Below are positions 7,978 to 11,834 of a stretch of DNA of 15,974 bases, piece after piece (position 1 is the first letter of the stretch; the number at the start of each line of letters is the position of its first letter). The DNA lies in assembly GCA_949287115.1 (NCBI GenBank), contig CASEFF010000134.1, positions 1-15,974 of the forward strand, read 5' to 3'. The stretch is from an uncultured Bacillota bacterium. Its GTDB lineage: Bacteria > Bacillota > Clostridia > Peptostreptococcales > Anaerovoracaceae. A program made the position numbers and the translations under genes. The notes beneath the pieces were generated by a model, which saw nothing but the letters and a program-made list of their open reading frames with translations, had not been told where the DNA came from and searched no databases.

Positions 7978-8442
7978 TCATTGGTCGCAATCCTTCAGCA
8001 GCGCCTCGACCTCATCAAGCTGAAGCTCCGAATACACAGCGACTCCTGCCTTTACGAGAAGTTCCGTCGCCGTTCCCTGTCCCTTTACGAGATTACCCGA
8101 AAACGTCCCGTCATATATCATGCTGCTGCCGCAGGACGGGCTCTTCTCCTTGAGCAGGGCGCAGACCACATCGTTTTCGCGGGCAAGTCTCGCTGCTTCC
8201 TCAGCACCCTTCAGATATTCCGCGGTCACATCACGGCCGTCCCGCGTCACGACTTTATCGCCTTTCCTCTGTGCATCGGCCCTCGGAACCGGCAGGCCGC
8301 CGAAGACCTCGGGACATACCGGTATCAGCCTGCCTTCTTCCTTCCATTTTAAAAATCTGGGATCCGTCTCTTCCTTTGATCTGCCGTCATACCGTACGGG
8401 GTCGCCTCCGTACAGGCACTGACTCACGAGTATCTTTTTCAT
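7978..8442 (-). CDS. DUF523 family protein, TudS-like thiouracil desulfidase candidate
   Basis: A 154-residue protein starting MKKILVSQCLYGGDPVRYDG. It has three conserved cysteines: Cys9 (SQCLYGG), Cys43 (VCPEVFGGLPVPR) and Cys104 (SPSCGSSMIYDGTFSG). These match DUF523, whose member TudS has been shown to hold a [4Fe-4S] cluster and remove sulfur from 2-thiouracil; the substrate here is unknown. The ATG at 8442 has GGGAG 8 nt upstream. The frame is open further upstream, across the preceding terminator and into rpsA, but that region is not DUF523-like. It is transcribed toward the aroK-like gene (34-nt gap). A strong terminator sits directly before its ribosome binding site. Confidence 0.88.
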   Translation of the reverse strand: MKKILVSQCLYGGDPVRYDGRSKEETDPRFLKWKEEGRLIPVCPEVFGGLPVPRADAQRKGDKVVTRDGRDVTAEYLKGAEEAARLARENDVVCALLKEKSPSCGSSMIYDGTFSGNLVKGQGTATELLVKAGVAVYSELQLDEVEALLKDCDQ

Positions 8443-8457
8443 AATATGCTCTCCCGC

Positions 8458-8485
8458 AAAAAAGAGATGGCGAACCATCTCTTTT
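8458..8485 (-). terminator. Intrinsic terminator after ispH-rpsA
   Basis: On the minus strand AAAAGAGATGG, loop TTCG and CCATCTCTTTT form an 11-bp stem with a UUCG-type loop, ending in a run of six T residues. It begins 27 nt after the rpsA stop. Its T-run ends 15 nt before the DUF523 start codon, leaving room only for that gene's ribosome binding site. Confidence 0.9.
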
Positions 8486-8512
8486 GAATGCATACGTATT
8501 GACAGATATGCC

Positions 8513-9751
8513 TTAAGCCTCGGTCTTTTCGCCTTCCGCTTCATCAGCAGCACTGTCCGTGACTTCTGCCGTCTCTGCCGGAGCAGCTTCCGCAGCATCG
8601 GCCACATCATCGGCAGGAGCGGCTTCCTCCGTCTCAGGAGCAGCTTCTTCACCTGCCACAGGCGGATCTATAGTCTCTCTTATGCTGAGGCTTATTCTCT
8701 TCCTGTCCTTATCTATCTCGAGTATCTTGGCCTTTACGATCTGTCCGACTTCAAGCTCGTCGTTGATGTTTCCGACTCTCTTGTGAGCAACTTCGGAAAT
8801 GTGTACGAGTCCGTCAAGACCCGGCTCCAGCTCAACGAAAGCACCGTATTCCTTGATCTGTACGACCTTACCCTCGATGACCTGACCTACCTGATAGTTC
8901 TCGTCGATAACGCTCCAAGGCTCAGGCGTATTCTGCTTGAGTCCCAGCGAGATCTTGCCCTTTTCCTGATTCATGGAAAGGACTTTCACGTTTATCTTCT
9001 GGCCTATGCTGAGCACTTCCTGAGGGTGCTTGAGTCTTCCCCACGAAATCTCCGAAATATGGAGCAGACCGTCGATACCGCCGATATCAACAAATGCGCC
9101 GTAATCGGTGAATCTCATAACGGTTCCCTCGACAACATCGCCGACGTTGAGATTCTCCCAGATCTCCGCAACCAGCTTTTCCTTTTCCTCGTTGAGGAAG
9201 AGCTTGTGCGAGAATACGGCTCTGTTCCTTCTCTGATCGACTCTGGAAACCCTTACTTCCATAGTCTGGCCTACGAACTCATCTGCGTTTTCAACGTAGT
9301 GATCCGAAAGCTGTGAAAGAGGAATGAATCCCGATACTTCCTTGTATTCGGCGATAACTCCTCCGTTTACCGTTCTGGTTACCTTAACTTCGAGTACTGT
9401 TTTATCTTCAAGCGCCTTTACGATCTCATCCCAGTTGGCGCTGATTTCCAATTTCTTCTTAGAAAGTAAGATGCCGCCATCACCGTCGTCGGTCTTTATT
9501 ACCTTCGCCTGTATCTCGTCGTCTACTTTAAAAACGTCGGACAATGTCTGACCTTCTTCAAGGCTCACTTCCGAAGCAGGAAGGATACCGTCTTTTTTGC
9601 ATCCCAGATTTACAATAACTTCTTTGTCAGTAACTTGGTGAACTTTTCCCGTAACGATCTCTCCGCCTCTAGGTAATCTGAGGGATTTCTCGATCTCGTC
9701 CATCAGGTCGTTCATGTTCAATTCGTTGTTTTCAAGTGTAACATCACTCAT
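8513..9751 (-). other. rpsA: Candidate internal translation unit: stand-alone S1 (412 residues) from within ispH-rpsA
   Basis: An ATG at 9751 is in frame with the fusion (codon 272) and begins MSDVTLENNELNMNDLMDEI, resembling the N-terminus of free S1 proteins of Bacillota. The minus strand has TAAGGAGGTT at 9770-9761, close to a full match to the anti-Shine-Dalgarno sequence, with 11 nt between GGAGG and the ATG. A sigma-A-like promoter lies about 60 nt upstream. This would allow S1 to be made without IspH. The same bases also encode Lys-Glu-Val of the IspH C-terminus, so the ribosome site may partly be chance. Confidence 0.5.
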
Positions 9752-10564
9752 TCTGGCAATAACCTCCTTAATAGTGCATTCGGGCGTCGAAGCACCCGCC
9801 GCTATTCCTATTCTATTACATTTTTGAAGTTGTTTCAACGGTAAATCTTCAATATTTTCAACAAAATAGGTGTTATTGCAGAATTTTTTGGAAATTTCGC
9901 ACAACTTCTTCGTGTTGGAGCTTTTTCTACCCCCTATCACGACCATCATATCGCACTCTTTGGCCAGCTGCGCACATGAATCCTGCCTTTTAGTCGTTGC
10001 GCTGCATATCGTATTGTTTACATAAAAACGCTTCCCCTTATCGGAAAACGCCCTCTCCACATCGCGCAGCACATCCTCCCTTATGGTCGTCTGCGTGACT
10101 ATGAACAGATCATCTTCTTCCACATCCGCAGCCTCATCGTATGAATTCACAACTATAGCGGGCTTCCTGCACCACCCGAATATCCCGGTGACTTCGGGAT
10201 GATCCTTATCGCCTACTATCACGACCTGCCGGTCGGTATCGTGGACGAGTTTATGGATCTTCGCCACGACCGGACATGTGGCATCTATGAGTCTTATGCC
10301 CTTCCTCTCCGCTTCATCGTAAAACGCCTTGCCTTCGCCGTGGGATCTTATTATCACAGTTTTGCCCGGATCGACTTCATCAAGGGAGTTTATGATCTTT
10401 ACACCCTTTTCTTCAAGATCCCGTGTCACCCGCTCGTTATGTATGAGAGGCCCCATGGAAAAAATATTTTCACTGCTGTTTTCCGCGGCTTCCTCCGCCT
10501 TTTCTATCGCCTGTCTGACGCCGAAACAGAATCCGGCGTTCTCAGCCCTTATTATTTTCTTCAT
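8513..10564 (-). CDS. ispH-rpsA: IspH–ribosomal protein S1 fusion (HMBPP reductase / 30S S1)
   Basis: A 683-residue fusion. Residues 1-271 are IspH (LytB), the [4Fe-4S] enzyme that reduces HMBPP to IPP and DMAPP in the last step of the MEP pathway. The cluster cysteines are Cys13 (GFCFGV), Cys97 (DATCPVV) and Cys187 (NNTICSATTKRQ), with the active-site HPEV (122-125), TQTT and SSNT. From residue 272 (MSDVTLENN) it is ribosomal protein S1 with four S1/OB domains at about 300-370, 388-455, 474-543 and 558-629. A disordered Ala/Glu/Asp-rich tail covers 632-683. Such fusions are known in Clostridia. The ATG has GGAG 7 nt upstream and overlaps the end of rarA by 23 nt. An internal start for the S1 half is described separately. 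Confidence 0.97.
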   Translation of the reverse strand: MKKIIRAENAGFCFGVRQAIEKAEEAAENSSENIFSMGPLIHNERVTRDLEEKGVKIINSLDEVDPGKTVIIRSHGEGKAFYDEAERKGIRLIDATCPVVAKIHKLVHDTDRQVVIVGDKDHPEVTGIFGWCRKPAIVVNSYDEAADVEEDDLFIVTQTTIREDVLRDVERAFSDKGKRFYVNNTICSATTKRQDSCAQLAKECDMMVVIGGRKSSNTKKLCEISKKFCNNTYFVENIEDLPLKQLQKCNRIGIAAGASTPECTIKEVIARMSDVTLENNELNMNDLMDEIEKSLRLPRGGEIVTGKVHQVTDKEVIVNLGCKKDGILPASEVSLEEGQTLSDVFKVDDEIQAKVIKTDDGDGGILLSKKKLEISANWDEIVKALEDKTVLEVKVTRTVNGGVIAEYKEVSGFIPLSQLSDHYVENADEFVGQTMEVRVSRVDQRRNRAVFSHKLFLNEEKEKLVAEIWENLNVGDVVEGTVMRFTDYGAFVDIGGIDGLLHISEISWGRLKHPQEVLSIGQKINVKVLSMNQEKGKISLGLKQNTPEPWSVIDENYQVGQVIEGKVVQIKEYGAFVELEPGLDGLVHISEVAHKRVGNINDELEVGQIVKAKILEIDKDRKRISLSIRETIDPPVAGEEAAPETEEAAPADDVADAAEAAPAETAEVTDSAADEAEGEKTEA
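9810..9838 (-). promoter_or_regulatory. Internal promoter candidate for the S1 half of ispH-rpsA
   Basis: Minus strand TTGAAA (9833-9838), exactly 17 bp, then TAGAAT (9810-9815). Each hexamer matches the sigma-A consensus at 5 of 6 positions. It lies in a locally AT-rich stretch of ispH, and a transcript from near 9803 would have a leader of about 50 nt before the ATG at 9751. Pattern evidence only. Confidence 0.45.
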
Positions 10565-11834
10565 CTATGCGCTCCAATGCTTCAAGATACTTTTTGAACG
10601 ATCCTTCACTGCCGTTTTCCGTAGGCTCGTAATATTTCTTTCCCTCCCTGTAAAGATCATCGGGAAGATACTGCTGTGTAACGTAGCCGCCGTAGTCGTG
10701 AGGATATTTATATCCCGTGCCCCTCCCCAGCTTCTCCGCACCTTCGTAATGCGCATCCTTCAGATGATCGGGCACATCGTCTATCTTTCTGTTCCTCACA
10801 TCGTCTATCGCCCTGTTGAGCGCCTCGTTGGCCGCGTTGGACTTCGGGCACGACGCCATAAGCACGACCGCCTGAGCCAGATTTATCCTCGCCTCCGGCA
10901 TACCCACCATCTGGGCCGCCCTGACGCAGGATGTCACTATGGATATGGCGCTGGGATAAGCCATCCCTATGTCTTCGCTGGCCATAACCAGCAGTCGTCT
11001 TCCTATCATCACTATATCCGCTCCGCCTTCCAGAAGTCTGGCCAGATAGTGGACCGCTGCGTGAGGATCGCTGCCCCTGACCGATTTCTGCAGAGCCGAC
11101 AGGAGATCGTAACGATCTTCCTCCCTGTCATAGAAAGTCGTCTGCCGCTGCATGGCTTCACCGACTATGCTTTTGTCTATGGTCTTTTCCTCGCTGATGT
11201 TGTCGACGATGAATCCCAGCGTATCCAGCGCTACCCGGCAGTCGCCGCCGCTCATTTCCGCCAGCATCCCGAGAGCATTTTCGTCGTATCCGATGTCAAG
11301 TCCGCCAAATCCCTTTTCATCATCGGTCAGTGTACGCTTCAATATGGTGAGTATCTCCCCGGATGACAGTCTTTTGAACTCATATATGTTCCTTACCCTG
11401 CTGAGTATAGCGTTATTCACGGAAAAATACGGGTTTTCGGTTGTGCTGCCGATGAAGACTATCACGCCTTCTTCGAGCGCTTTCAACAGCGAATCCTGCT
11501 GCAGCTTGTTCCACCTGTGCACCTCATCCACATAAAGACACGTCGATTCCCTCTGCAGCCCGTAAAATCTCGTGGCCGCATTTTCCAATATCGTCTTCAA
11601 CTCCTTCGTGCCTGTTGTCGATGCATTTATCTCGACAAAACTGCTGTCCAGTTCTCCCGCTATTATCCTCGCCAGCGTCGTCTTGCCTGTCCCCGGCGGT
11701 CCGAAAAATATGGCCGAGTCAAACGTCCCGTTCTTTATTGAATTATAGAACAGAGAACCTTCGTACATGAAGTGGGTCTGCCCGACAAAATCCTGTATAC
11801 GTGAAGGTCTCATCTTCGTAGAAAGAGGTATCAT
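10542..11834 (-). CDS. rarA: Replication-associated recombination protein RarA (MgsA) AAA+ ATPase
   Basis: A 430-residue AAA+ ATPase of the RarA/MgsA/WRNIP1 family, which acts at stalled replication forks and is related to clamp-loader subunits. It begins IPLSTKMRPSRIQDFVGQTH. Walker A GPPGTGKT is at 45-52 and Walker B CLYVDEVHRWNK at 99-110. IGSTTENPYFSVNNAILSR carries sensor 1 and the arginine-finger region. The C-terminal block has EDIGMAYP, the family's CPKSNAANEAL and HLKDAHYEGAEKLGRGTGYKYPHDY. GGAGAG stands 11 nt before the ATG. It heads the transcription unit that continues, by a 23-nt overlap, into ispH-rpsA. Confidence 0.95.
   Translation of the reverse strand: MIPLSTKMRPSRIQDFVGQTHFMYEGSLFYNSIKNGTFDSAIFFGPPGTGKTTLARIIAGELDSSFVEINASTTGTKELKTILENAATRFYGLQRESTCLYVDEVHRWNKLQQDSLLKALEEGVIVFIGSTTENPYFSVNNAILSRVRNIYEFKRLSSGEILTILKRTLTDDEKGFGGLDIGYDENALGMLAEMSGGDCRVALDTLGFIVDNISEEKTIDKSIVGEAMQRQTTFYDREEDRYDLLSALQKSVRGSDPHAAVHYLARLLEGGADIVMIGRRLLVMASEDIGMAYPSAISIVTSCVRAAQMVGMPEARINLAQAVVLMASCPKSNAANEALNRAIDDVRNRKIDDVPDHLKDAHYEGAEKLGRGTGYKYPHDYGGYVTQQYLPDDLYREGKKYYEPTENGSEGSFKKYLEALERIDEENNKG

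Follow-up and report, generated by a model that had tools for sequence, protein, structure and literature searches.

Does a gene read as a single long frame, in which IspH is joined to ribosomal protein S1, give only the joint protein, or does it also carry a nested rpsA gene from which S1 is made on its own? The question is raised by an ispH-rpsA fusion ORF of 683 codons located on the minus strand (8513..10564, stop included) of the analyzed stretch of DNA (15,974 nt, hereafter the window).

Elements at the domain junction of the fusion gene

In the encoded protein, Pfam finds a LytB/IspH domain at residues 4-272 and, after it in the same open frame, four S1 repeats. Its NF000907 score of 755.7 bits (residues 3-646) exceeds the curated cut-off of 624 and identifies it as a bifunctional IspH/30S S1 protein. 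This agrees with the preliminary description of the locus, according to which such fusions are already known; proteins of the same type are described in the accessible part of PMC4746011. No separate S1 gene was found in the window's own genome (a draft, 74% complete), and one further S1-domain match in this draft covers 75 residues inside a 769-codon open frame. The ORF upstream of ispH (10542-11834), presumably rarA, overlaps the ispH start by 23 nt, and therefore ispH probably has no promoter directly ahead of it.

TTGAAA-17-TAGAAT, a ribosome site TAAGGAGGTT and an in-frame ATG at codon 272 had been placed at the junction by the preliminary description, and all these positions proved exact. 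The putative promoter is composed of a -35 hexamer TTGAAA (9833..9838, minus strand; codons 243-244) and a -10 hexamer TAGAAT (9810..9815, minus strand; from the last base of codon 250 to the second base of codon 252), with 10 of 12 matches and a 17 nt spacer, inside the accepted range of 16-18 nt. Judging by promoter geometry, transcription would start at position 9803 of the minus strand, 7 nt below the last -10 base. The Shine-Dalgarno stretch (9761..9770, minus strand) occupies codons 266-268 with their flanks and sits at the domain junction. The ATG of codon 272 (9749..9751, minus strand), 11 nt after GGAGG, would open a nested rpsA gene (8513..9751, minus strand, stop included) encoding a free S1 of 412 residues from Met272 with four Pfam S1 stretches.

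Taken from the window alone, these motifs are not above chance: there is one promoter-like site in 8300-10800 compared with 2.6 expected in shuffles, and AAGGAGG occurs once on both window strands (9763-9769) compared with 2.7 expected. Such counts suit an explanation by chance and protein constraint, by which the C-terminal helix of IspH needs K-E-V and Met, while codon usage favours AAG GAG GTT. The junction elements rise above chance because they are conserved across relatives, as described in the next section. At the 12 gene starts examined in the window, including that of ispH, AAGGAGG was not observed.

The surroundings of the junction had also been described as AT-richer than the rest of the gene. 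Of the 1962 90-nt windows in the gene, only 8 have a GC content as low as that of the promoter part (9804-9893; 0.256), which bears the description out. For the full interval 9749-9838 the description fails: GC content there is 0.422, and 290/1962 windows have values as low. A point of caution is the gap between GGAGG and ATG, which at 11 nt is longer than usual in the window's own genome. The commonest gap of AAGGAGG(5-12)ATG sites there is 8 nt (31 of the 100 sites listed out of 116), and 11 nt lies in the upper tail (5 of the same 100 listed out of 116, the junction included). Longer Shine-Dalgarno spacing with A-U-rich extended pairing is reported for S. aureus in the accessible part of PMC13009471, and, by analogy, an extended pairing of this kind might suit GGAGGTTATT.

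Conservation of the junction in the family and across the class

The search of the window's own genome and 60 relatives gave a match in 61/61 genomes, S1-domain matches included. We compared 34 same-genus fusion loci and asked which of the columns with an invariant amino acid were also codon-invariant. This was the case for one column each among 19 Lys (266), 24 Glu (267), 28 Val (268), 30 Leu (243) and 23 Ile (252) columns, and these map onto the Shine-Dalgarno stretch (266-268), the -35 (243) and the -10 (252). The remaining codon-invariant columns were 5/8 Gln, 1/14 Ser and 1/5 Tyr.

At the family level (the searched family is, we assume, Anaerovoracaceae), 140/148 genomes and 88/92 genera were matched at E<=1e-60. 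Named near relatives, presumably members of this family, include Anaerovorax odorimutans, Emergencia, Gallibacter intestinalis, Eubacterium brachy, [Eubacterium] infirmum and Mogibacterium. In total, 139 of 141 family loci were aligned; L143 and L144 had no IspH match and were dropped. The set consists of the 34 genus junction loci, with two loci each contributed by genomes G020 and G025, and of 105 loci from the range L059-L165 (107 loci), which came from 145 other genomes, 137 of them with a match.

TTG243, the -10 core TA...T, GGAGG and ATG are jointly present in 139/139 family fusions. Thus, the alignment of AAGGAGG and ATG across fusions that the preliminary description had proposed supports a nested start. 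Loss of the ribosome site through synonymous changes in related fusions, named there as evidence against it, was looked for as well, and the site was kept in 139/139 family loci and in 88/89 loci of other families. At the codon level, we found TTG243 in 139/139 loci (the next best Leu column reached 0.855), ATA252 in 133/138 Ile codons, AAG266 in 125/125 Lys codons, GAG267 in 139/139, GTT268 in 137/139 and ATG272 in 139/139. The -10 bases T (250.3), A (251.1) and T (252.2) are the same in all 139 loci while residues 250 and 251 vary, as does the third base of the hexamer. A fixed TA...T with variable inner bases is the pattern of sigma-A -10 elements. GC content at third codon positions in the family drops to 0.258 in codons 239-255, compared with 0.513 in codons 1-238 and 0.520 in codons 291-640.

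How much of this could be due to the protein? At the residue level, E267 and M272 do not vary among the 139 family loci, as protein constraint would have it. However, residue 266 is replaced (K, E, R, Q or L) while its codon always ends in G, so that the nucleotide pattern is unchanged. Furthermore, among 114 divergent family representatives (<80% nucleotide identity, mean 62%), TTG243, GAG267 and ATG272 were each found in 114/114, whereas 0/157 control columns were fully codon-invariant and the median share of the top codon was 0.52. Other in-frame GGAGG(4-13)ATG sites are scarce in family fusion genes (11 in 94,262 codons).

Fusions outside the window family were studied in a class-wide search, in which 212 of 291 genomes matched at 1e-110. 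The class set comprised 90 fusions from 43 families, 30 of them best-scoring and 60 chosen for family and genus spread; 89 were parsed and L246 was left out. GGAGG is present at the junction in 88/89 (the exception, L244, has AGAGAGG). Codon 267 is GAG in 89/89 despite a mean within-gene GAG share of 0.30, and codon 266 is AAG in 65, GAG in 17, AGG in 4, and CAG, AGA and TCG in one each, the mean within-gene AAG share being 0.38. These two were the only codon-invariant columns in the class set. The product of the GAG and AAG shares is 10^-81 if the sequences are taken as independent, which they are not. An ATG is found in all 89 fusions: 87 have it at codon 272 and 3 at codon 271, one fusion carrying both. 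It follows GGAGG at a distance of 11 nt in 85 fusions and of 8 nt in 3. Only four other in-frame GGAGG(4-13)ATG sites were found in these genes. The junction variants AGGGAGG (L204), AGAGAGG (L244) and TCGGAGG (L248) represent natural tests of site strength.

Unfused ispH genes served as controls. GGAGG was found at the matching place in 0/35 of them, and Leu or Ile occupies position 272 in the 16 unfused loci examined for it (L042-L056, L058), which also argues against protein constraint. The 35 controls were taken from 37 loci, L044 and L045 being skipped as having open frames >420 codons. L040 was left out of this count since it looks like a frameshifted fusion with AAGGAGG and ATG at its junction. 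In this locus (genome G046), two overlapping frames near residues 368-379 indicate an apparent frameshift in the S1 half, either a sequencing error or a real break.

Based on the codon invariance at 243 and 266-268 relative to controls and on the class-wide presence of GGAGG, explanations by chance and codon bias were rejected, and we give chance combined with protein constraint next to no credence. By nucleotide-level comparison, the predicted Shine-Dalgarno and start codon inside the ORF have been kept beyond protein need both in the family and across the class. The same is true of the putative promoter in the window family.

Outside the window family, the range of the promoter is different from that of the ribosome site. 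Promoter conservation extends to the window family and to two loci of family f9 (L031 and L032, with TTGAAT and TAAAAT at the equivalent place), and not to the class: in the 89 other-family fusions, TTG243 is present in 9, TA..T in 23 and both in 7. Two loci of family f11 (L033, L040) contain AAGGAGG and ATG and lack TTG, and TA..T occurs in 10/35 unfused loci. Since the inner ribosome site is conserved class-wide and the promoter is not, the former appears to be ancient and the latter to have been added later. We infer that the predicted promoter fires. Two f9 genomes possess, besides the fusion, a second, stand-alone S1-like gene (G044:C22:192610-193677 and G055:C32:41907-42956).

A putative hairpin between the promoter and the ribosome site

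Between the -10 and the Shine-Dalgarno stretch, codons 256-262 form the pattern CnGGnG[6 nt]CnCCnG. The corresponding predicted hairpin (9776..9802, minus strand) has an inner stem of 6 bp (9798-9793/9786-9781) with a loop at 9792-9787 and a weaker outer stem of three pairs (9802-9800/9778-9776). Its fixed G-C pairs are due to the protein motif AGASTP. Pairing of the wobble positions was first noticed by eye in the genus set.

In the family, the wobble pair of codons 256-261 is paired in 95.0% of cases compared with 63.7% expected, and that of codons 257-260 in 93.5% compared with 70.2%. When the 12,099 variable wobble pairs of the gene are ordered by three covariation measures (paired minus expected, Watson-Crick minus expected, and mutual information), these two come at ranks 1 and 2; ordered by the raw fraction paired, they come at 2 and 3. 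Inner-stem cells are paired in 96.9% (131 distinct rows) compared with 88.0% in shuffles, a level that 0/500 shuffles reach, and pairing in the inner stem falls to 22-47% when the partner strand is slid. Counted in both orders, G-U pairs occur in 26/131 rows at columns 6-21 and in 41/131 at columns 9-18.

These pairs were further analyzed on a tree built without the hairpin region, with 2140 other pairs as the null. Pairing was kept on 43/55 and 47/68 changed branches, compared with a null mean of 10% and a maximum of 51%. Changes on both sides with the pair kept were detected on 14 and 5 branches; 14 exceeds all 2140 null pairs, while 5 is matched by 47 of them. The outer stem (codons 255/263) is weaker, with 73-85% paired. 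RNAalifold returned the inner three pairs and an outer stem, and not the whole stem, and the total folding energy of the leader is unremarkable (z -0.9). Taken together, the aligned loci show covariation of the predicted hairpin in the window family. Class-wide, the signal is weak (64% compared with 42% expected for 256-261, and 54% compared with 44% for 257-260), and both pairs form in 12/35 unfused loci.

If transcription starts near 9803, as promoter geometry predicts, the hairpin would lie at the 5' end of the S1 mRNA, which suggests protection or regulation, and we consider that it probably serves one of the two for this mRNA. Alternatively, the nested gene may be real and the hairpin an element of S1 autoregulation or translation control instead of a 5' stabiliser of the mRNA. 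S1 autoregulates rpsA in E. coli, and the location of the hairpin between promoter and ribosome site, together with the lack of any Rfam match up to E 1 within 8300-10900, is in line with this alternative. On the other hand, protective 5' stem-loops begin close to the mRNA 5' end, and 1-5 nt would separate the hairpin from the predicted end. In addition, the predicted fold leaves AAGGAG, part of the ribosome site, unpaired. We regard the control element as a serious contender, though with chances somewhat below even.

Probable origin of the predicted inner start and proposed products of the gene

Insight into the origin of the junction came from another family, f2, in which 35 of 41 genomes searched were matched and 9 fused and 21 unfused loci were read. 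In 15/21 unfused loci, the likely ribosome site of rpsA (mostly AAGGCGAGG), as read by eye, falls within the final codons of ispH, whose stop is near the rpsA start or overlaps it (e.g., TAATG or TGATG); in the other 6 it is at or after the ispH stop. In L345, a single in-frame stop, TAG, directly precedes the ATG. Five of the nine fused loci (L340-L343, L347) contain AAGGTGAGGGA and ATG in the corresponding place and the ispH stop is gone, while in the remaining four (L336-L339) different SD-like stretches, judged by eye, precede the first Met of S1. The GGAGG-11-ATG junction itself was found in 0/9 fused f2 loci. The linker after the junction Met of L347 contains a run of repeated Glu-Glu-Gln codons. 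By their arrangement, L345 and L348-L365 represent intermediates between separate and fused genes, and f2 shows how a fusion can inherit a predicted inner start. The fusion of the window family presumably had the same origin.

The f2 loci also bear on a different explanation of the junction, namely that the SD-like stretch slows elongating ribosomes so that IspH folds before S1, with no initiation taking place. It would account for the position of the stretch exactly at the domain junction. However, it leaves unexplained the conserved ATG with its nearly fixed gap, as well as the upstream promoter and hairpin in the window family, and the f2 unfused relatives have such a site before a separate rpsA start. 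We therefore consider ribosome slowing unlikely.

If S1 is initiated inside the frame, is the fusion protein needed at all? It could be supposed that only free S1 and truncated IspH matter and that the intervening open frame is neutral, since in f2 the stop may be absent or present, with one in-frame stop separating the genes in L345. However, 138/139 family loci keep the frame open for >60 codons beyond Met272 (L041, the remaining one, lies at a contig end), and 89 fusions of 43 other families keep it open for at least 355 codons past the junction. L040, a fused locus outside the window family, was considered in this connection since it looks frameshifted in its S1 half. The long open frame indicates that the fusion protein is kept too, and a neutral frame seems slightly less plausible still than ribosome slowing.

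In the reading that we prefer, with a high degree of confidence and on nucleotide-level evidence, the window gene would have two products, the fusion and a free S1 made from the kept start of rpsA itself, with its own promoter and perhaps a 5'-hairpinned mRNA in the window family. Ribosomes beginning at the ispH start would make the full IspH-S1 protein. AAGGAGG in the last IspH codons would recruit ribosomes to start at Met272 and to make free S1 of 412 residues. This inner site is most likely the original ribosome site and start of rpsA, retained after loss of the ispH stop. In the window family, the nested gene would be transcribed from a sigma-A-type promoter in the 3' end of ispH into a short mRNA, whose 5' end would fold into the hairpin, probably protective or regulatory. 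We infer initiation at Met272 and the existence of both proteins; the ribosome site and ATG of 139/139 family loci, together with GGAGG in 88/89 and ATG in 89/89 fusions elsewhere, favour the nested start put forward in the preliminary description. Its dosage logic, that S1 is needed far more than IspH, may apply.

With good, if slightly lower, confidence, we extend this reading to most clostridial IspH-S1 fusions. They would be dual-product genes that arose by loss of the ispH stop before a start signal of rpsA lying within ispH, in which both the long frame and the inner start are kept and free S1 is the main product; one family would have a full inner transcription unit (promoter, 5' hairpin and ribosome site) within ispH codons. 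If so, downstream expression would depend on the ribosome-site stretch AAGGAGGTT. These genes would offer a conserved example, open to simple tests, of how fusions may cope when their parts are needed in unequal amounts. They also point to one route of fusion, in which loss of the stop comes after the ribosome site of the downstream gene has already taken its place within the upstream gene, and warn that a second protein can go unnoticed where a long ORF is annotated as one.

IspH-RPS1 'Rosetta stone' fusion proteins were described by Rao et al. 2015 (PMC4746011). As far as the accessible part of this paper goes, its fusions (NF000907) have the same IspH and four S1 repeats as the window protein and likewise come mostly from anaerobic Firmicutes; Fusobacterium fusions are also named. 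The gene is treated there as coding for a single polypeptide, unlike the dual-product reading proposed here, and in the same part no mention of an internal start, a linker or Shine(-Dalgarno) was found. This is in keeping with the preliminary description, which knew of no described internal start; none was found in the literature searched either, most subscription journals being outside its scope. According to the same part of PMC4746011, the C. thermocellum product, made in E. coli with an N-terminal tag, was full-length and was accompanied by co-purified Rho. An N-terminal tag would not retain free S1. The fusion was also used there as an argument that IspH acts on the ribosome. If the dual-product reading is true, this 'Rosetta stone' argument needs re-reading, since a large share of the S1 in such cells could then be the ordinary, unfused protein.

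Internal promoters in operons are known from C. ljungdahlii, where, according to the accessible part of PMC6203783, a downstream unit is likewise driven by a promoter located in the 3'-terminal part of a gene. Unlike in those operons, the downstream unit here is in frame and belongs to the same ORF, and the putative promoter is frozen across the family. Phage T7 gene 4A/4B and E. coli infB and cheA are examples of in-frame internal starts giving nested proteins. In these genes, too, a ribosome site and a start inside the ORF lead to a full protein and its C-terminal part. In contrast to them, the predicted inner product here corresponds to an entire ancestral gene, rpsA, which has been joined to that of an unrelated enzyme, and rpsA seems to have kept its original start as the inner site. 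Finally, E. coli ompA and B. subtilis aprE have 5'-terminal stem-loops that stabilise their mRNAs. The hairpin described here similarly lies upstream of a ribosome site and near a predicted 5' end, but, unlike those stem-loops, it is located in coding sequence, and both the transcription start and the stabilisation are putative.
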